Made by a program: the position numbers and the translations under genes
The notes under the pieces: model-generated
What the model was told of the DNA's origin: nothing
Seen by the model: only the letters and a program-made list of their open reading frames with translations
The model's database searches: none
Shown: positions 50,255 through 61,866 of the stretch, piece after piece
How positions within the stretch are numbered: position 1 is the stretch's first letter
Layout: every line of letters begins with the position of its first letter
From: Fusobacteria bacterium ZRK30
Lineage (GTDB): Bacteria > Fusobacteriota > Fusobacteriia > Fusobacteriales > Fusobacteriaceae
Assembly: GCA_024628785.1 (NCBI GenBank)
Contig: CP102404.1
Coordinates: forward strand, 186,001 to 250,000
DNA length: 64,000 nucleotides
Reading direction: 5' to 3'

Positions 50255-50306
50255 AATTAATCCCCCTTATCGCTTACAGCGAAACTAATAATACTTTTTG
50301 TTTAAC

Positions 50307-52205
50307 TTACACTAATACTCTTGAGTTATCTACCCTCTTAGTTACTCCTACCTTATCTAAATGTTCTAAATAGGCAACTAAATATTTCCTACTGGTTTCT
50401 ATCTTAGCTTTAACATCAGGAAGCGCTATTTCCTTGCCACCTTCTCCCAACTGATTTATTACCATCATTAGATTATTATAATCTGATTCCAATAGGAAAA
50501 CATCCTTTTCTATAAACTTTAATTTTCCTAACAATACCATCATATCGAAAACCCTCTTTAATTCTTTAGGATCCCCGGCTAATTTTGATAGTTCCTCATA
50601 TTTAGGAGGTTTGTAACCATTATTTTTATAAGTTTTCAAGATTGTCTCTTTAATTTTTTCCTGATTTTTACTTAGTTTTATCTCAAAATCAAAGAGGGAA
50701 ACTAAACTAGAATTTACCTTAATAACTTTATCATCCTCTAATTTTGATAAAACTTCTAAATAATTTTTATTCTTAAATTTTTTAGAAAAAATCTTATTTC
50801 TAATAGTAGAAGTATTTTCTCCTATTAACAGTGGGTTTTTACTGTGGAAATCCTCTAGGATTGCTAAAAGTTCCCCTTTTTTACCTTCTAAGAAATTTTT
50901 ATGCATATATATAGTTTCGCTTAAAGCTGTTAACTCTAAAACTTCCTTATTCTTAACCAACTTTTTCAAAGATTCAGTTATATCTTCAGCACTTCCAAAA
51001 TTTAATTTGATATCTTCAAAAGATGGATATTTAGAACTTAATTCCTCAATTACACTGGATAGTTTAACACTGTTATCGCTCTTTCCACCCTTTAATGTTT
51101 GGATTAATTTTTCATCAAATCTCTTAGCCTTTGTAGCCAACGGATTTAGAATCGTTACTCCTCCAATGGTAAACATAGGGGAATAATTACGAAGTATCCC
51201 TAAGTCTCCAGTAAATCCAACCAATTCCTTCTCTAAGATCAATTGTGCATAACCGCTGTCCCCGGCTTTTAATTCCTGCTGATCCAGCAATTTTATACGG
51301 CAGATGATCTCCTTGGTTCCATGATGAAATCTAACCCTTTGGTTGTTCTTTAGAACTTTGGTGTTAGAAGACAGGTAATTTATCTCTACATCCATAAGTC
51401 TAGTTACAGAAAGAGAGTTAGGAGTAGCTACTACACTTCCCCTCTTTATATCTTCCTTATCTATCCCTGCAAGGTTTATAGCACATCTATTCCCTGCACT
51501 GAGAGTGTCTACACCTATACCATGATTTTGGATCCCTCTGACCTTAGCTACCCTGTCACCTGGATATATCTGCAGTGAATCTCCTACTTTCAGATCTTTT
51601 CCCTGAGATGTTCCTGTAATAACTGTTCCAAATCCCTTTACACTAAATGATCTGTCTACCGACATTCTAAAAACTATTTTTTCCTGCTCTTCATCTTTGA
51701 TAGTTTTTACTAAATCACTCAATGAGTCCCTTACCTCTTGGTAAGAATCCGGGTTATCTATAGAGGTTTCAATCATAGGAGCTCCACTTAAAAAACTCCC
51801 TCCTAATTCTTCTTCTATTTCATTTCTTACTTCTAATACCCTTTCTTTACTTGCCTTATCACACTTAGTGATAACTACAACTCCGTGATGGATCCCTAAA
51901 AGTCTAACTATATCAAAATGCTCACGAGTCTGAGGCATTATCCCGTCATCAGCAGCTACTACTAACATAACTATATCTATTCCTGTAGCTCCTGCCATCA
52001 TATTTTTTACAAACTTCTCATGTCCCGGAACATCTATTATTCCTACTTTTTCTCCCTTTAGATTGAGGTAACTAAATCCTAGATCTATAGAGATCCCCCT
52101 TTTTTTCTCCTCAGGTAATCTGTCGGTATCTACCCCTGTAAGGTTTTTTATCAACGTAGTTTTACCATGGTCTATATGTCCTGCCGTTCCAATTACTATA
52201 CTCAT
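50307..52205 (-). CDS. selB: Selenocysteine-specific elongation factor SelB
   Basis: Brings Sec-tRNA to UGA codons by binding the SECIS hairpin. At 632 residues it is full length. The GTPase domain has [20 protein letters not shown], the switch [16 protein letters not shown] and TKCDKA. EF-Tu-like domains II-III follow, and the C-terminal ~250 residues form the winged-helix array that binds the SECIS. It overlaps selA by four bases. Its presence with selA and a UGA-containing selD shows an active Sec pathway; selC (tRNA-Sec) is not in this window. Confidence 0.96.
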
Positions 52206-53605
52206 ATTTTATCAATCCCTTTACTTAAAATTTCATAAATACTATCCATATCATTTTCATTCAAAGTTTTGCAGTCAAAAACTAGTTTTCCCCCTTGAAT
52301 TCTACCAACTATAGATAGTGGATTATTTCTAAGAGTTCTTTCTAATTTGACAATACTATGTCCTTTATAAGATATCGCTACCCCGAAACTATCCATAAGT
52401 TCCGTAGGCATAGAACCTCCTCCGATCATTGCATTAGTTTCAACCAGATCCGCTTCTAAAGTTTCTAAAGTTTTTAACTTTTCATATAAAATATGAGCTC
52501 TTTTCTCAACCTCATCCTTCCCCTCTAATATCATTCTAAGGGTTGGAATATTCTTTACAGCTTCCGCTTCATCTAAATACTCCCTTAAAGTAACTTCCAA
52601 GGCAGCTATAGTCAACTTACTGACTCTTAAAGTACGTAAAAGATTGTTTCTTTTCATCTTTTCAATATATTGTCTTTTTCCAACTATGATTCCAGCCTGA
52701 GGTCCTCCTAAAAGTTTGTCCCCACTAAATGTAACTACATCTATACCAGATTTTAAACTCTCCTGAACTGTAGGTTCCTTCTTATATCCATATTTAGCGA
52801 AGTCGATCAATACTCCACTGCCTAAATCTTCAATGGAGATTAATTTTTTATCTCTGGCCATCTTAGATAACTCTTCATTTTTTACTTCCTTCGTAAATCC
52901 CATTATCTTATAGTTAGAAGTGTGTACTTTTAGAAGTGCTTTCGTTTCAGGTGTTATAGCCTCTAAATAATCCTTCTTATGAGTTCTATTAGTTGTTCCT
53001 ACCTCTATCAGCTTAGAACCACTATATTCCATTATAGCAGGTATTCTAAATGATCCACCTATCTCTACTAATTCCCCTCTAGATACTATTACTTCACTAT
53101 CTTTAGTCAATGTATCTAAGGCTAATAATACAGCTGCTGCATTGTTATTTACTACTATAGCACCTTCTGCTCCTGTTATATCACAGATTAATTTTTCAAT
53201 ATGAGAATATCTGCTTCCCCTCTTACCGGTAGATATATCATATTCCAAATTATTATAGTTACTAGCTATATTTACTATGTTTTTTACACTACTCTCTATC
53301 AACTTAGATCTTCCTAAGTTAGTATGAATGATTGTTCCTGTGGCATTTATTACCCTTTTAAGGTTTAATTGGTTCTTTGATTCAATTAATTTTATTATCT
53401 TATTGGTAATCTCCAATTTTAGATCTTCCTTAGCTATTTCCATATCAGTAAATCTTTGATTTAAAATCTCTTCCCTGTAGAATGAAATTCCTTCCCTAAT
53501 AGATTTTATTAAAATATTATATGGAACACTGTCTTTATATGCTTCTAACTTTTTACTTATTAAAAATTCATCTACCTTAGGTAGATTAGATAACAATCTT
53601 TTCAC
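52202..53605 (-). CDS. selA: L-seryl-tRNA(Sec) selenium transferase
   Basis: PLP enzyme that converts Ser-tRNA(Sec) to Sec-tRNA(Sec) using selenophosphate. Its 467 residues match the family. Signatures: RVINATGTIIHTNLGRS near residue 83-99, VVNNNAAAVLLAL, and the Schiff-base Lys in VTFSGDKLLGGPQAG near residue 290-304. It lies 22 bases after selD and overlaps selB by 4 bases. The N-terminal ~80 residues are helical, as expected for the tRNA-binding part. A GGGGG site precedes the ATG. Confidence 0.96.
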   Translation of the reverse strand: MKRLLSNLPKVDEFLISKKLEAYKDSVPYNILIKSIREGISFYREEILNQRFTDMEIAKEDLKLEITNKIIKLIESKNQLNLKRVINATGTIIHTNLGRSKLIESSVKNIVNIASNYNNLEYDISTGKRGSRYSHIEKLICDITGAEGAIVVNNNAAAVLLALDTLTKDSEVIVSRGELVEIGGSFRIPAIMEYSGSKLIEVGTTNRTHKKDYLEAITPETKALLKVHTSNYKIMGFTKEVKNEELSKMARDKKLISIEDLGSGVLIDFAKYGYKKEPTVQESLKSGIDVVTFSGDKLLGGPQAGIIVGKRQYIEKMKRNNLLRTLRVSKLTIAALEVTLREYLDEAEAVKNIPTLRMILEGKDEVEKRAHILYEKLKTLETLEADLVETNAMIGGGSMPTELMDSFGVAISYKGHSIVKLERTLRNNPLSIVGRIQGGKLVFDCKTLNENDMDSIYEILSKGIDKI

Positions 53606-53627
53606 TTTTTAAATCCCCCTTTATTCC

Positions 53628-54650
53628 CTATATAACTTTCATTCTAAACGTACTTTTTTTCACGACTTCTCCTATAAGACTAGATTTTATATCCAGTTCC
53701 TCCAAGTCAGCTAAAAATTTATCTGCATCTTCACCTGCTACACTTATGAGTAATCCTCCTGAAGTTTGCGGATCAAACAATATCTCCTCCATAGGAAATG
53801 GAACTCCCTCTAAGACTACTTTATCTCCCAGATGTTTTCTATTTTTTTGTCCGGCAGAGGTAATCAAGAATTCTTCTGCATATTCATAAGCTTCCTCAAT
53901 ATAAGGTACTTTTTTACTGTCTACCACTATACTGATTTCGTCATTTAACATCTCAGATAGATGTCCTAAAAATCCAAATCCAGTTACATCTGTACATCCA
54001 TTTACTTCATATTTCTTCATCTTTTCAGCTGAATATTTGTTCAGTGTTTCCATAAGTTTTATTGCTTCCTTATAAGAACGTTCGTTGGCTTCTCCCACAT
54101 TATGAGCTGTAGTCACTATACCTATCCCAAGGGGTTTTGTCAGAATTAATTTATCTCCTGCCTTACATGTATTATTGGCTATTACCTTATCAGGATGAAC
54201 TACTCCTGTTACAGATAATCCATATTTTGGATTTTCATCATTAACAGAATGTCCCCCACTTAAAATACCACCTGATTCCATTACTTTTTCAGCTCCACCA
54301 CGTAAAATTTCCCCCAATATATTAGGATCTAATTTTTCTGGAAAACATACTATATTCAATGCTGTAAGAACATCCCCACCCATTGCATATACATCACTGA
54401 GAGAGTTAGCTGCCGCTATCTTTCCATATGTATATGGATCTTCAACTATGGGAGTAAAAAAGTCTAACGTTTGAATCAAGGCCATATCCTTACTCACCTT
54501 ATATACTGCAGCGTCATCAGCACTATCGAACCCGATAAGCAGATTTTCGTCGTATACTTTTGGAATATGAGCCAATACTTCAGATAGAACACCCGGTCCT
54601 ATTTTAGAAGTTCAGCCTCCACCACTGCAAAATTTTTCAAATTTGTTCAT
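53628..54650 (-). CDS. selD: Selenide, water dikinase, a selenoprotein with Sec13 at an in-frame UGA
   Basis: Makes selenophosphate from selenide and ATP. The simple ORF starts only at 54575, inside the domain. The true start is ATG at 54650 after GGGAGGT: codons read [15 protein letters not shown] (54614-54612), then [20 protein letters not shown]. Other SelD proteins have Cys or Sec at exactly this place, before the glycine-rich loop, so the UGA is read as selenocysteine and the protein has 340 residues. The remaining domain has [13 protein letters not shown] and [22 protein letters not shown] hairpin follows the UGA. It heads selD-selA-selB-yedF-DUF3343. Confidence 0.95.
54577..54611 (-). 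promoter_or_regulatory. Bacterial SECIS element in selD
   Basis: It starts immediately after the UGA. Lower stem ACTTC/GAAGT, an internal loop (TAAA opposite CT), upper stem ATAGGAC/GTTCTAT with one G-U, and a 5-base apical loop CGGGT holding the G residues that SelB contacts. Size and spacing fit bacterial SECIS rules. Confidence 0.88.
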
Positions 54651-54839: not shown

Positions 54840-55893
54840 TTGTCAAATTAAATGCAACACTTTTCAATTTCACCCCAAAATACTTCTTTTGGGGTTTTCC
54901 AATTTAAACACTTCCTTGGTCTATTATTAATTTTGTTTACCGCTTTATAAAATTCACATCTCTTTATCTTACTAAAAATAGTCCCTTTAGGGAAAGTTCT
55001 CCTTAATAAACCGTTTGTATTCTCATTTGTTCCTCTCTCCCATGAGTGATAAGGGTTAGCAAAATAAGCTTTAATACCTAATGCTTCCTCTAATTCTTTA
55101 AATTTAGAGAATTCTTTCCCGTTATCCGATGTAAATGTTTTTATGTATTCTTTAGGTATATATTTAAAATTCTCTATTGTTGCCTCATTAAAAGTATCTG
55201 ATTTTCTATTAATCATTAGCTCCGCTACAAGATATCTTGATTTCCTATCAACATAAGTCATCATAGCACCTTTTTTTCCTGCGCCAACGATAGTATCGCT
55301 TTCAAAATGACCAATCTCACTTCTATCATTCGCTTCTTCAGACCTTTCTTCTATCATCTTTTTATTAGGGATTTTACCCCTTGTTTCTTTCAATCCTCTA
55401 GGCTTTTGTTTGCCTTTTCTAGTTAAAAGGTATTTAGTACTCTCCGTAAGAAAATCAAGATATATTGCTCTATAAATTGTTTTAAATGAAATAGAATATT
55501 GGTTGTCTAATTTAGCTCTTCCTGATATTTGTTCTGGACTCCAACCTGATTCTAACTTTTCTTGAATATCTACCAAAAGGATCGAATCTCTTAATTTGTG
55601 CTTTCTTCCACAAAGTTGTTTTCTTTTTTTGTATAAAAACTGGGCTTTATTAGGAGTGTACTCACCATCAACTGAATTTCTATTAATTTCTCTATAAATA
55701 CTAACTCTATTTTTCTTTAATTTAGCTGCAATAAAACTAATTGATTTTTTTTGCGCTAAAAATTTAAATATACTTTCTCTTTCTTCAATGGTAAAATGTT
55801 TATGATTCATAAATACTCCTTTAATGTTTGGTCGCACTTACATTATACCAAGGAAATATTTATGAATTTTTTTTGTTGCATTTAATTATACAA
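54840..55893 (-). mobile_element. Insertion sequence, IS30 family
   Basis: About 1.05 kb bounded by 20-bp terminal inverted repeats (54840-54859 and 55874-55893; 18 of 20 bases match, both carrying AATTAAATGCAACA). They enclose one intact transposase gene whose stop codon lies inside the left repeat. No target duplication is obvious, which is not unusual for the 2-3 bp made by IS30. It sits between the selenium operon and a small secreted protein gene. Confidence 0.85.
54848..55837 (-). CDS. IS30-family transposase
   Basis: 329 residues, intact. It has an N-terminal helix-turn-helix (about 1-60; FTIEERESIFKFLAQKKSISF, then KKNRVSIYREINRN) that binds the terminal repeats. The DDE catalytic domain has the first Asp in IGHFESDTIVGAGKKG, the second in KTFTSDNGKEFSKF, and the Glu in HSWERGTNENTNGLLR. 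The spacing is right for IS30, and NRPRKCLNWKTPKEVF near the end is the family's C-terminal signature. The element is probably still mobile. Confidence 0.95.
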   Translation of the reverse strand: MRPNIKGVFMNHKHFTIEERESIFKFLAQKKSISFIAAKLKKNRVSIYREINRNSVDGEYTPNKAQFLYKKRKQLCGRKHKLRDSILLVDIQEKLESGWSPEQISGRAKLDNQYSISFKTIYRAIYLDFLTESTKYLLTRKGKQKPRGLKETRGKIPNKKMIEERSEEANDRSEIGHFESDTIVGAGKKGAMMTYVDRKSRYLVAELMINRKSDTFNEATIENFKYIPKEYIKTFTSDNGKEFSKFKELEEALGIKAYFANPYHSWERGTNENTNGLLRRTFPKGTIFSKIKRCEFYKAVNKINNRPRKCLNWKTPKEVFWGEIEKCCI

Positions 55894-57327: not shown

Positions 57328-57663
57328 AACCATCTCTCCTTCAATAGGTTTTATCGACTTAAAGTAACTAAAATAACTTATTTAATATCTAATATACTAA
57401 ATACCGAAAAAGGTAAATAAAACCTTTAAAATAATCTGATAAAAAACAAAAAAAGTTACTAGAACAGTTACTAAATGTAGAGAGAACAGTCAATACTCCT
57501 AAAAAAAGGAAATTATCCATATCCTGCCAAAATAATTAAAGGTTTCATTATGAATGTTTTTGGTCTAGGTATAACATTGTAAAATCTTGAAATTGGATTT
57601 ATACTAATTATAGTTACTTGTATTCAGTATATTTTAAAATTATATAGGTTTATGGGAGGTATT
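57328..57663. other. Gene-free stretch between msrAB and the AraC-type gene
   Basis: 336 AT-rich bases. It contains the half copy of the 61-bp repeat (57501-57539) and a plausible plus-strand promoter (TTGTAT near 57619, 17 bases, TATATA) about 20 bases before the regulator's ribosome binding site. No ORF was seen. Confidence 0.45.
57501..57539. repeat. Half copy of the 61-bp inverted-repeat element
   Basis: Repeats the left half of 54745-54805 (GGAAATTATCCATATCCTGC onward) and its left flank (GTCAATA..CC, A-run) with one clear substitution, then diverges after AATAATTAA. Confidence 0.6.
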
Positions 57664-58830
57664 ATGAGTAATATAGAGCAGATTGAGTTTATTAATAAGA
57701 AGGGTCAAATCAAAGGTTTTGAGATCACATCATTGAAGAGTTATTTTGAATCTGTGGATGAATCTTTTATTAAAACACCATACCGTACCTCTTTTTACAA
57801 TTTAATATTTATCACTAAAGGCAGGGGATCCCATGAAATTGATTTCTTAGAATACACCATTAAAGCAGGTGATCTTTTAATAGTATCCAGAGATCGTGTT
57901 CATAGATATAGTAAATTCGAAAACTTAGAGGGATACTTAATCATGTTTACAGAGGGGTTTTTATGTGAATTTTTAAGCAGTCAAACTTCTGAGGTAAAGG
58001 ATTTATTTAAACTGAGTTATTTAAATCCGCATATTGATTACCTGGATTTATACACAGAAACATTAATAACACTTTTAAATGTAATAAATGATATGTATAA
58101 AAATGCTTATGAATTTATAGATAACAAGGTAATTGCTTCAGCTTTTAACACCTTTACACAAATACTGTCCAACAGTGGTTTAGGAGAAAGCAGATCCAGA
58201 TATAAAAAAAATGAGACATTTGTACAGTTCACTGAATTAGTTGAAAAAAATATCAATAATATCAAAACTGTGAAAGAGTATGCCGATATGATGCATGTCT
58301 CAAAAAAAACGGTTAATTTAATGACAAGAAAAGCTATTGATATGTCGGCTAAACAGTATATTATTCAGCAATTAATATTAAAAATAAGACTTAAACTCAG
58401 TTTCGAACAAAAAAGCATCAATGAGATTGCTTATACAATAGGGTTTACAGAACCATCAAACATGACTAGGTTTTTTTAAAAGAATACAAAAACCAGCCCC
58501 AGTGAATTTAGAAATATGGTAAGACATGACAAAAACAGCTGGTTAAATAGCAAAAATATAGAATTAAATAGTATTGCCGAATCTATCGAGGAAAATGTAT
58601 ATCACATCTCTTCCAAAGCAGTGGTTCCACTGCACAAACATGAAGATCTGGACGAAATCTTTTACTGCATAAAAGGTTCTGGTTTTGGCGTACTAGAGAA
58701 CGGAGAAGTGGAGTTAACGGTAGGCAAACCTTTTATTGCCCCTGCCGGAATAATGCACTCCCTTAGAAGTGATGGAGATCTCTATGTTACAGCTTTTCTT
58801 ATTCCCGTCGTAGATGAGCGGCAAATTTGA
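57664..58830 (+). pseudogene. AraC-family regulator fused to a C-terminal cupin, interrupted by an in-frame TAA
   Basis: Start ATG at 57664, after GGGAGG. Residues 1-270 are an AraC regulator: an N-terminal cupin-like sensor (FIKTPYRTSFYNLIFITKGRG, IKAGDLLIVSRDRVH) and two HTH motifs (VKEYADMMHVSKKTVNLM and INEIAYTIGFTEPSNMTRFF). A TAA at 58477-58479 stands where a Lys codon is expected. The same frame then continues with KNTKTSPSEFRNMVRHD, the normal end of AraC proteins, and a second cupin (about 58590-58810). There is no ribosome binding site for a separate downstream gene. Loss of the last helix probably kills DNA binding unless the stop is read through. Confidence 0.8.
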
Positions 58831-58883
58831 CAGGAGTTAAATAACATTGAATATAATAAAAAAAGAACAAAAGGAGTAAAGAC

Positions 58884-59447
58884 ATGAATTTAAATTTAAT
58901 TAAAGAATCTATTGAGACAAAGGTATATGAGATCCATTTGGATACAAAGGTTCCTATGCATGAACATGCAGATCAAGATGAAATATTTTATTGTATAAAA
59001 GGTTCCGGTTTTGGGATTTTAGAAGATGGGGAAGTAGAATTAAATGTAGGAGATACATTTGTTGTTCCTGCCGGGACAATGCATTCTATGAGAAGTGATA
59101 AAGATTTATATGTGGTAGCTATTCTTATCCCTGTAGATAAAATTATTTGTCACTGTAAACAAGTGAGTTTTGGTGATATCAGGAGAGCGATGGTCGGCGG
59201 CGCTCGTACTGTAGAGAAGATACAAGAAATCACAGGAGCAGGGACAGGTTGCGGCGGATGCATTGAAGAAGTAAAAAAAATATTAGCAGTAGCCTGTGGA
59301 TGCAAAGGGGTTTCTATAGAAGCAGTAGTTAACACAGTTAAAGGTGGAGCAGATACAATTGAAAAAGTTGAGAAAGCAACAGGGGCAGGTAGTGGATGCA
59401 GAAAATGCAAAGCTCTATTGCAAAACATAATTGACACAAAGAAGTAA
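58884..59447 (+). CDS. Cupin fused to two BFD-like [2Fe-2S] modules
   Basis: 187 residues. The cupin (about 1-88) has the metal-site pattern VPMHEHADQDEIFYCIKGSG and PAGTMHSMRS. Next is a BFD-like [2Fe-2S] domain with ICHCKQV and GAGTGCGGC (four Cys, about 92-137), then a second, more diverged copy with ACGCKGV and GAGSGCRKC (about 145-185). BFD domains occur in nitrite reductase, NifU and Bfd; their union with a cupin is not one I recognise. The cupin is a near duplicate of the one at the end of the preceding gene. AAAGGAG precedes the ATG. Confidence 0.8.
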   Translation: MNLNLIKESIETKVYEIHLDTKVPMHEHADQDEIFYCIKGSGFGILEDGEVELNVGDTFVVPAGTMHSMRSDKDLYVVAILIPVDKIICHCKQVSFGDIRRAMVGGARTVEKIQEITGAGTGCGGCIEEVKKILAVACGCKGVSIEAVVNTVKGGADTIEKVEKATGAGSGCRKCKALLQNIIDTKK

Positions 59448-59514: not shown

Positions 59515-59892
59515 ATGTTTAAACGAATCGACCATATCGCATTTACCATTAAGGATAGAGCCAAATCTATACATTTTTATGAAGAAAATTTTGGATTTAA
59601 AAAATATTTTGAACACGATGCACCTGTGCCTGCAGTAGAAAAAATAGTTTATCTTAAACTAGGGGATACTATTTTAGAGATGGTGCACCTAAACACCGAT
59701 TCAACAAATCAAGGGTTTCATTTCTGTCTTGAAAGTGATAATTTTGACGAAGACTATACCCGTCTGATAAATGCCGGTGTTCCTGTAGATACCGAACCTC
59801 ACCCTGTTGAAGCAAGAGAGGCAAGAGAAGAAGGATGGCGTAGAGTAGTCTTTATCGGTCCTGATGGAGAATTAATAGAATTTAGAGGGTAA
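59515..59892 (+). CDS. VOC-family (glyoxalase/dioxygenase fold) protein
   Basis: 125 residues forming one vicinal-oxygen-chelate unit of two beta-alpha-beta-beta-beta repeats: MFKRIDHIAFTIKDRAKSIH with the first metal His, KLGDTILEMVHL with the Glu, HFCLESDNFDEDY with the second His, and GPDGELIEFRG with the final Glu. All four metal ligands of the glyoxalase type are present. Length and motifs resemble methylmalonyl-CoA epimerase and lactoylglutathione lyase relatives; the substrate is open. AGGAGG lies 6-8 bases before the ATG. It follows the cupin-BFD gene by 67 bases and may share its transcript. Confidence 0.85.
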   Translation: MFKRIDHIAFTIKDRAKSIHFYEENFGFKKYFEHDAPVPAVEKIVYLKLGDTILEMVHLNTDSTNQGFHFCLESDNFDEDYTRLINAGVPVDTEPHPVEAREAREEGWRRVVFIGPDGELIEFRG

Positions 59893-59942: not shown

Positions 59943-59971
59943 TTTACATTACTTGGATATCCAAGTAAAAT
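59943..59971 (+). promoter_or_regulatory. marR promoter with embedded palindromic operator
   Basis: TTTACA (59943-59948), 17 bases, TAAAAT (59966-59971). The spacer contains the perfect 16-bp palindrome ACTTGGATATCCAAGT (59951-59966), identical to 60448-60463. The predicted start is at or next to the A of the marR ATG (59978). Confidence 0.82.
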
Positions 59972-59977
59972 AGATTT

Positions 59978-60418
59978 ATGAGATATGATAATACGATTAA
60001 TTTAATAAGTAAAATCAGAGAGATTTCCAGCATGTTTATTATTTCTGAATTAGAAAAATTAGGAATAATAGGAATTGTCCCTTCCCACGGTGACATTATA
60101 GTCACACTGATAAAACATAGGGAACTGACCATGACTGAAATTGCAGAAAAAATCAACAAAGACCGTTCAACCGTTACTACCTTGGTAAAAAAGTTGAATA
60201 AAATTGGCTTTACAGCCACAAAGAAAAACGAAAACGATCAGCGATCAAATTTCGTATTTCTTACACCTAAGGGGAAGGAGTTAGAGGAAGGTTTTAATCA
60301 AATTTCTGAAAAATTATACAACGTTCAATTTAAAGGACTAAAAGAGGAAGAAAAAGAAATTTTTAGAAATATTTTAATCAAAATATATAATAATTTTAAA
60401 CAAGAAAATCAGAATTAG
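59978..60418 (+). CDS. MarR-family transcriptional regulator
   Basis: 146 residues with a winged helix-turn-helix: LTMTEIAEKINKDRSTVTTLVKKLNKIGF (recognition helix DRSTVTTLVKKL) and the wing TKKNENDQRSNFVFLTPKG. Terminal helices form the dimer interface. It probably represses itself and the NhaC antiporter through the twin palindromes. No Shine-Dalgarno sequence precedes the ATG, and the -10 box ends only six bases before it, so the mRNA is probably leaderless. A later Met (residue 12) also lacks a good site. An intrinsic terminator overlaps the stop codon. Confidence 0.9.
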   Translation: MRYDNTINLISKIREISSMFIISELEKLGIIGIVPSHGDIIVTLIKHRELTMTEIAEKINKDRSTVTTLVKKLNKIGFTATKKNENDQRSNFVFLTPKGKELEEGFNQISEKLYNVQFKGLKEEEKEIFRNILIKIYNNFKQENQN

Positions 60419-60439: not shown

Positions 60440-60447
60440 AAAAATAT

Positions 60448-60463
60448 ACTTGGATATCCAAGT
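60448..60463. promoter_or_regulatory. Second copy of the MarR-type palindromic operator, in front of nhaC
   Basis: ACTTGGATATCCAAGT, identical to the marR operator, followed at once by an extra half site ACTTGGA that runs into the GGAGG ribosome binding site. A TATACT-like -10 (60445-60450) overlaps its left edge. Confidence 0.8.
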
Positions 60464-60480
60464 ACTTGGAGGTTGAATTT

Positions 60481-61866
60481 ATGGATTATGGATGGATTTC
60501 ACTCCTGCCTATAATTATCGCTATTACATTAGCTTTTATCACAAAAGATGTTTTTACTGCCCTACTATCCGGTATTATTTCTTCCGGCTTGATCCTAAGT
60601 TATCACGGAGAAAGTATTTTTATAGGATTGAATAGTATAGCAGGTGTTTTCCTAAACGGCTGGGCTGTCAGATCAATATTGTTCTGCCTAATGATCGGAT
60701 CATTTGTACACACAATAGAAGCTTCCGGAGGAATAAGAGGTCTTCTCATATTTTTAGCAGAGGAAAAAAAAGTAGTAAAATCCAGAAGGGGAGCTGAACT
60801 CATAGCCTATATAATCGGACTGCTCATCTTCATAGAAGCAACCAGTTCTACAGTTATATCCAGTATATCTGCTAAACCTTTCTTTGATAAATACGGTATC
60901 CCCCGGGAAAAACTGGCCTATATCACAGACTCTACATCTGCTTCTGTAGCCTGGCTTTTCCCTATAAATGCCGCAGGGGCGTTTCTTATGACCATGATAG
61001 GATCTCAAATTTCTGCCGGGACTATTACAGGAGATCCCTTTGTTTATGTGTTAAAATCAATGCCCTTTCAGCTTTATAGTATCTTTGCAATAATCCTGGT
61101 TGGAATCACAATTATTACAGGAAAAGACCTTAAGGTTATGAGCAGTTTCACAGCTGATGATTTAACAACTATAGAGACCGTTTCAAAAAAACATGATCAT
61201 TTTAAAAAACCAAGGGCACGAAACATGATCTTACCTACATTTCTTTTAATCGCCAGTATTTTTGGAATTTTGTATATCACCGGAAAAGGTAATATATCTT
61301 CCGGGGACGGAGCCGAAGCAATATTTAATGGGATAATAATAACCTTGATCTTAACCGGTATCTACTATGTTTTTCAGGGAATAGTAAAACCCAAAATATA
61401 TATAGATTGGTGTATAGAAGGAATGGCCAATTTCCTTCAAATCACAATTATACTGGTTTTAGCCTTTGCCTTAAGTAGTCTAATGGAAAAATTAAATTTA
61501 GGCTCCTATATAGCCGAAATGAGTACAGATATGAATCCCGTGCTTTTACCGGCAGTGATCTTTCTCATGGGATCCATTATATCTTTTGCTACTGGGACCA
61601 GCGGTGGAACAGCTGCAATTCTTATCCCCATCGCTATCCCCATGGCTGCAAAATTAGGAGTCGATATCCACCTGACAATAGGAGCTGTCGTATCCAGTGC
61701 TGTTTTCGGAGATCATTGTTCCCCCATATCGGACTCTACAATCTTAGCTTCCATGATCTCAGAAGTCCCTGTGATGAACCATGTAAAAACTCAGATACCC
61801 TATGCCCTTATTTCAGGGGGAGCTTCAATGGCAGGATTTTTAATAATGGGAGTACTTCTCATATAA
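60481..61866 (+). CDS. NhaC-family Na+/H+ antiporter
   Basis: 461 residues from the ATG at 60481 (GGAGG 8 bases upstream), with about 11-12 membrane helices. Typical features: MDYGWISLLPIIIAITLAFITKD at the N-terminus, an acidic LIFIEATSSTVISSIS segment in a helix, AWLFPINAAGAF, and the re-entrant FATGTSGGTAAILIPIAIP and VFGDHCSPISDSTILAS near the C-terminus, the hallmark of NhaC/YuiF/MleN proteins. It may exchange protons and sodium, or an organic acid as in MleN. It is probably repressed by the adjacent MarR protein and co-transcribed with the flavin/ferredoxin gene 28 bases downstream. Confidence 0.9.
   Translation: MDYGWISLLPIIIAITLAFITKDVFTALLSGIISSGLILSYHGESIFIGLNSIAGVFLNGWAVRSILFCLMIGSFVHTIEASGGIRGLLIFLAEEKKVVKSRRGAELIAYIIGLLIFIEATSSTVISSISAKPFFDKYGIPREKLAYITDSTSASVAWLFPINAAGAFLMTMIGSQISAGTITGDPFVYVLKSMPFQLYSIFAIILVGITIITGKDLKVMSSFTADDLTTIETVSKKHDHFKKPRARNMILPTFLLIASIFGILYITGKGNISSGDGAEAIFNGIIITLILTGIYYVFQGIVKPKIYIDWCIEGMANFLQITIILVLAFALSSLMEKLNLGSYIAEMSTDMNPVLLPAVIFLMGSIISFATGTSGGTAAILIPIAIPMAAKLGVDIHLTIGAVVSSAVFGDHCSPISDSTILASMISEVPVMNHVKTQIPYALISGGASMAGFLIMGVLLI

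Follow-up and report, generated by a model that had tools for sequence, protein, structure and literature searches.

Two neighbouring genes of a Fusobacteriota genome carry closely similar cupin domains, one at the C-terminal end of an interrupted AraC-family regulator and the other at the head of a protein with two BFD-type iron-sulfur domains, which raises the question of why one fold should be attached both to a DNA-binding protein and to a redox module. The first-pass annotation of the window (the whole stretch of 64,000 nucleotides analysed here, G000:C1:186001-250000, part of a 3.6-Mb genome) saw in the pair a local duplication that had linked the same sensor fold to DNA binding and to an iron-sulfur module, perhaps for redox or metal sensing.

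The gene pair and its relatives

The first gene (57664..58479, + strand; ORF and profiles) starts at ATG 57664, with another in-frame ATG at 57652, and encodes an AraC-family regulator with an N-terminal AraC_binding domain followed by HTH_18. An in-frame TAA (58477..58479, +) separates it from its C-terminal cupin and cuts the second half of the HTH at position 66 of the 80 in the HTH_18 profile. The frame stays open beyond the stop to 58830, and this continuous rest of the gene (58480..58830, +) encodes a Cupin_2 domain (E 1e-8), cupin A, placed at about 58558-58809 by profiles and alignment. HTH_18 scores 41.3 bits despite the interruption (61.5 in the intact copy of the relative G055; cut-off 33.6) and AraC_binding 28.4 bits (42.6 in G055; cut-off 21.1). 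That the gene is broken, as had been annotated, is confirmed by its homologues in G055, G056 and Propionigenium maris (G054), which read through this position into intact proteins of 389 aa with AraC_binding, HTH_18 and a C-terminal Cupin_2. In comparisons of the window with these three relatives, dN/dS is 0.08-0.16 after the stop and 0.09-0.14 before it, indicating conservation at the protein level; since the sequence past the stop is still conserved as protein, the interruption should be either very recent or a sequence error. With the stop in its second HTH, the gene of the window genome does not encode a complete AraC/XylS protein able to bind DNA, and the regulator is probably inactive there, unless the stop is a sequence error. 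Inspection of the sequence reveals no apparent ribosome-binding site before the downstream ATG at 58516, and for this reason cupin A is probably not made on its own.

The second gene (58884..59447, +; profiles and AlphaFold2 model) encodes a protein of 187 aa in which Cupin_2 (43.5 bits, cut-off 27.2) and two stretches of Fer2_BFD (93.1 bits over both, cut-off 26) exceed the curated cut-offs, in agreement with the cupin and two BFD-like domains annotated before. Cupin B (58884..59135, +) carries a predicted metal site of conserved residues, H26-x-H28-(x4)-E33 and H67, together with C37. The first BFD domain (59142..59288, +) reaches 60.5 bits and the second (59295..59435, +) 45.1 bits for Fer2_BFD in a search of their own genome; all eight BFD cysteines are present, as C89-x-C91...C123-xx-C126 and C138-x-C140...C172-xx-C175, the C-x-C and C-x2-C lying about 32 residues apart in both domains. 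Given the family membership and these eight cysteines, it is highly likely that both domains hold [2Fe-2S] clusters. The residues HxH(x4)E, C and H are found in every cupin of the family (45/45, alignment of 45 cupin domains), as are the Cupin_2 metal ligands HxH(x3-4)E(x6)G with the second-motif His (45/45), and we are confident, on the basis of these ligands, in predicting that the cupins bind metal. The AlphaFold2 model of the 187-aa protein has a mean pLDDT of 90.6 and a pTM of 0.65, so that the arrangement of the domains is less certain; the best PDB matches of its N-terminal part by Foldseek are cupins (E 5e-7). A PDB match to TALE repeats was discarded, as it consisted of weak repeated matches and no significant single stretch. 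The two cupins are identical in 56 of 82 residues (68%), gapless (E 2e-40), and form a direct repeat of 260 nt with 71% identity at the DNA level; their agreement in most residues had been recognised from the outset, and the coordinates given then are correct to within a few codons.

The cupin-BFD-BFD fusion is present in 4 of 98 Fusobacteriota genomes, with two copies each in G054 and G056, and outside this phylum in Oceanirhabdus, in the Bacillota MAG McBI.64 and in three Marinifilaceae of the Bacteroidota (Labilibaculum, Ancylomarina and Marinifilum); no match to it was found in 72,556 plasmid records. The AraC-cupin gene followed by the cupin-BFD-BFD gene occurs in the window genome, G055, G056, P. 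maris, Oceanirhabdus and McBI.64, at a distance of 53-54 bp in the window and G055 and of about 150 bp in McBI.64, and in Oceanirhabdus a second AraC gene sits between the two. One cluster cysteine is lost in each of two fusion copies (L075:9718-10308, BFD1 GWAGC; L077:7178-7768, BFD2 CGG), which are perhaps degenerate paralogues. Two Clostridium MAGs, the only known sources of such forms, encode the whole arrangement in a single chain, as AraC-cupin-BFD-BFD of 487 aa (L044) and as AraC-cupin-BFD of 438 aa (L045), the lone BFD of the latter looking like a recombinant of BFD1 and BFD2. In both, an A-type linker leads into a cupin of type B, as would be expected if the two-gene form had lost the segment between its two cupins. 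The model of the 487-aa protein is poor (pLDDT 62.9), hence uninformative on domain contacts, and was left out. The separate parts are commoner than the fusion: around a tenth of 207 Clostridium-family genomes have a stand-alone cupin (86-90 aa), and a similar share a tandem-BFD protein (about 106 aa). The window genome has another tandem-BFD protein at C2:1776308; in L078:6300-8180, also from C2, the separate tandem-BFD protein of 106 aa has a Crp-like regulator and a flavoprotein of PNPOx type as neighbours, and a Crp-like protein of the same cluster comes after the fusion in P. maris.

A conserved element ahead of the regulator and its probable targets

The region 5' of the AraC gene has changed far less than synonymous sites have (synonymous difference 0.34-0.40). 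Within it, a 43-bp element, TTTCATTATGAATGTTTTTGGTCTAGGTATAACATTGTAAAAT (57543..57585, +), can be aligned upstream of the AraC gene in eight genomes of two phyla (profile E 2.6e-12 in its own genome), and we propose it as the operator of the AraC-cupin protein. Its 3' end overlaps the TTGTAA of a proposed operon promoter (57577..57605, +), identified by consensus match only, with a 17-bp spacer and TATACT; TATAMT at 57600-57605 is invariant in all eight aligned upstream regions. The element precedes every intact AraC-cupin and AraC-cupin-BFD gene, its core being recognisable 5' of AraC in Oceanirhabdus, in McBI.64 and before both single-chain Clostridium genes. A search for an RNA element in this conserved region gave no credible Rfam match.

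A weight matrix trained on the eight sites ahead of AraC genes was used to scan 1.8 million positions of retrieved DNA, where only three further sites reached at least 18 bits, all in sense orientation: 106 bp before the cupin-BFD-BFD gene of Oceanirhabdus (L040:4895), 118 bp before that of McBI.64 (L041:4883) and 110 bp before the VOC gene of McBI.64 (L041:2591). The top score in a Markov null of 4 million bases was 6.9. These three non-training sites lay in loci already chosen for these genes, and their rank is confirmed by the search of whole genomes: with a profile of all 11 sites run against eleven whole genomes, the sites have E-values of 5e-8 or better and everything else of 3e-4 or worse, a result that, as the profile includes the three new sites, confirms the gap to the background and not their discovery. 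Among 98 Fusobacteriota genomes, strong sites are confined to the four with the regulator, one site per genome.

In the Bacillota Oceanirhabdus and McBI.64, where the two genes do not form one operon, the cupin-BFD-BFD gene thus has an element copy of its own, and it is this copy at a separated target that provides the strongest evidence for control of the iron-sulfur protein by the regulator; where the genes are 53-54 bp apart, one element before the regulator would be enough. We regard it as very highly probable, judging from sequence, that the AraC-cupin protein controls both itself and cupin-BFD-BFD.

Candidates for a wider regulon were rejected, as the next-best sites are weak or lie inside a coding gene (lysine aminomutase-like). 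One weak copy (E 0.016; L155:1448-1530, Oceanirhabdus C1:4333854) lies 114 bp before an NhaC-type transporter that is 52% identical to the one near the window locus; it falls in a long palindrome, may be a chance occurrence and is kept as a hint only.

A proposed module and competing readings of its function

In the scheme that we favour, an AraC-family activator with an extra C-terminal cupin of metal type would bind the 43-bp element overlapping the -35 of its own promoter and switch on its own gene, the cupin-BFD-BFD gene behind it and, in some hosts, that of a VOC enzyme; that it activates rather than represses is our inference. Cupin-BFD-BFD would be a soluble redox effector, its cupin taking a metal and a small ligand while the predicted [2Fe-2S] cluster of each BFD domain feeds or withdraws electrons, and cupin A, as a paralogue of cupin B, could read the same metal or ligand and so close a feedback loop. 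In the single chain of Clostridium, DNA binding might respond directly to the state of the clusters. Whether this scheme holds in all its parts (self-activating AraC-cupin, redox effector, shared cupin sensing and merged Clostridium form) we judge to be evenly balanced; redox or metal sensing by the pair is plausible.

The neighbouring genes bear on the role of the fusion protein and on the possible signal. Each of the five Fusobacteriota loci with the fusion has a VOC gene after it (in G056, after the second copy), which in the window encodes a protein of the VOC/glyoxalase fold (59515..59892, +; PF00903, E 6e-14); the VOC protein of McBI.64, under its own element copy, is 67% identical to it. 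Other neighbours vary: MarR, PNPOx-ferredoxin and NhaC-type transporter genes in the window, a MATE protein and an Oxidored_FMN (old-yellow-enzyme-like) enzyme in G056, and a Crp-like protein in P. maris. In the three Bacteroidota, a gene for an HxlR regulator lies divergent to the fusion gene (in Marinifilum an NmrA-like reductase intervenes), and the second fusion copy of P. maris (L077:7768-8140) has a divergent MarR gene and neither an AraC gene nor the 43-bp element. Quinones and thiol oxidants are the signals of HxlR regulators such as YodB, and oxidant or electrophile stress might be the physiological signal of the module, a tentative suggestion towards which we incline less than half-way, as it rests on neighbours that differ between genomes. 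Because cupin-BFD-BFD is retained next to HxlR or MarR genes where AraC is missing, we think it somewhat more probable that it is mainly an effector than a co-sensor.

Some features of these surroundings stand apart from the element. The palindrome ACTTGGATATCCAAGT occurs in the window at 59951-59968, before the MarR gene (59978-60418), and again at 60446-60465, before the NhaC-type transporter gene (60466-61866); it is probably the MarR operator, which would place these two genes under their own control. Two ATATCTA(A/G)TTAGAT palindromes lie 5' of the second P. maris fusion copy (L077:7768-8140). On the other side of the pair, the window holds selB, selA and selD-like genes (50300-54575), the selD frame being open only from a TTG beyond the place expected for the active-site region, as it would be with an in-frame TGA for selenocysteine ahead of it, and an IS30-like transposase gene (54848-55837) sits between this selenium gene cluster and an msrAB gene. 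A lead towards nitric oxide came from the cupin Ddes_1828, which adjoins hcp and is NO-induced in Desulfovibrio desulfuricans (PMC5701242); it was dropped, as the model in that paper names ylbA beside hcp (PMC5701242). A search of 199 genomes from the class to which Halodesulfovibrio belongs gave no further relative, and the three hcp-type genes of the window genome all lie away from the locus.

Cupins commonly dimerise, and the presence of homologous cupins on both partners, together with their tight synteny, their co-regulation and the single-chain forms, would also fit a split iron-sulfur sensor, in which cupin-BFD-BFD is a co-regulator and not an enzyme; by pairing of its cupin B with cupin A, it would signal to the AraC protein in what redox or iron state its two [2Fe-2S] clusters are, and the fusion in Clostridium would be the same device in one chain. 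However, neither an AraC gene nor the element adjoins the fusion in the three Bacteroidota or at the second copy of P. maris, so that signalling to AraC-cupin cannot be its only function there, and we consider a split sensor unlikely.

We find it more unlikely still that the genes form a catabolic or detoxification operon free of redox sensing, with cupin-BFD-BFD as a metal-dependent enzyme of oxygenase or isomerase type fed with electrons by its BFD domains, VOC as a second enzyme acting on the compound that the first one acts on, and the AraC protein sensing this compound. Such an operon would account for the constant place of the VOC gene after the fusion in Fusobacteriota and for its shared operator in McBI.64, and the NCBIfam model that comes nearest to the regulator is HpaA, though with a score far below cut-off; the related NhaC-type transporters of the window locus and Oceanirhabdus would also fit, but the Oceanirhabdus site is the weak one within a palindrome. 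Moreover, the hosts are anaerobes, which makes an oxygenase unlikely, and the cupin is also found alone beside unrelated genes and regulators.

Origin of the cupins and relation to known systems

In a tree of 45 cupin domains (84 columns), cupins group by type and not by genome, those fused to the regulator (A) apart from those fused to BFD (B). Five of the six A cupins, from Fusobacteriota and Oceanirhabdus, form one group (support 99/83), all B and single-chain cupins another (92/95), and each type spans Fusobacteriota and Bacillota. A sister relation of the two window cupins is rejected (AU p about 1e-59), a duplication within the genus nearly so (0.059), and one inside Fusobacteriota is not rejected (p 0.13). 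The link between regulator and iron-sulfur module proposed by the first-pass annotation is upheld by the shared operator, the conserved synteny and the single-chain fusion in Clostridium, whereas the local duplication is not borne out, the phylogeny speaking against a recent event and for separation by type across phyla. The annotation had also held that greater similarity to distant families than to each other would count against its view, and this is so in part: of the stand-alone cupins, that of Candidatus Scalindua comes closest, with 80% identity to A and 71% to B, against 67% between A and B over the 84-residue domain. That the repeat is a recent tandem duplication of no functional significance in a locus undergoing decay, to which the in-frame stop and the DNA identity might point, is extremely improbable, since the gene pair recurs in other genera and in a second phylum, a window-only event is rejected, purifying selection is seen on both sides of the stop and the operator is conserved. 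A and B would derive either from one old duplication or from two separate recruitments, between which 84 columns do not separate.

Each domain of the module is known, and the combinations are new relative to two sources: no NCBIfam model covers them, and no description of cupin-BFD-BFD or AraC-cupin fusions was found in full-text searches of the open-access literature. A regulator and its target with paralogous metal-type cupins, merged into one protein elsewhere, provide a testable case of a ligand-binding fold moving between an effector and a sensor; thanks to the conserved operator, the regulon can be read from sequence, and the small soluble proteins (187 and 389 aa) lend themselves to biochemistry.

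Few families of bacterial regulators are as numerous as the AraC proteins. Like the AraC/XylS proteins HpaA, RhaS and AraC, the regulators described here have an N-terminal cupin-like domain, a double helix-turn-helix and a proposed site abutting the -35, and by sequence a conserved site near the -35 is present at the AraC, cupin-BFD-BFD and VOC promoters; what sets them apart is the additional C-terminal Cupin_2 that follows the HTH, joined in Clostridium by one or two BFD domains. The BFD domains share C-x-C...C-x2-C, and Fer2_BFD scores above the curated cut-off, with E. coli Bfd, NirB, NifU and CopZ, but here two of them stand in tandem on a cupin, with no NirB, NifU or bacterioferritin attached, and the 187-aa protein falls below the NCBIfam equivalog cut-offs for NirB (52.6 against 578 bits), Bfd (21.3 against 75) and NifU (28.2 against 273). 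The stand-alone tandem-BFD proteins of Clostridia and Fusobacteriota (about 106 aa) have the same two domains, about 43-70% identical, but no cupin and no operator that we could see, and the fused ones mostly group apart from them. The stand-alone Cupin_2 proteins of 86-90 aa in Clostridium, Scalindua and Halodesulfovibrio are about 50-80% identical, with the same metal residues and the FYC motif, but are unfused and have varied neighbours. To our knowledge, no AraC protein carries an iron-sulfur cluster. AraC-cupin-(BFD)2 could conceivably represent a new class of iron-sulfur regulators, the first [2Fe-2S] sensors of redox state, iron or NO in the AraC family, with a one-chain form in Clostridium, a split form in Fusobacteriota and Bacillota and a dedicated operator, a proposal that we regard as rather doubtful. 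SoxR, IscR and NsrR, with their MerR and Rrf2 folds and other cluster-binding motifs, have no homology to AraC-cupin-BFD; the likeness would lie in the way of working, should the merged protein of Clostridium use [2Fe-2S] clusters for sensing, as is suggested solely by the domain fusion in L044 and L045.
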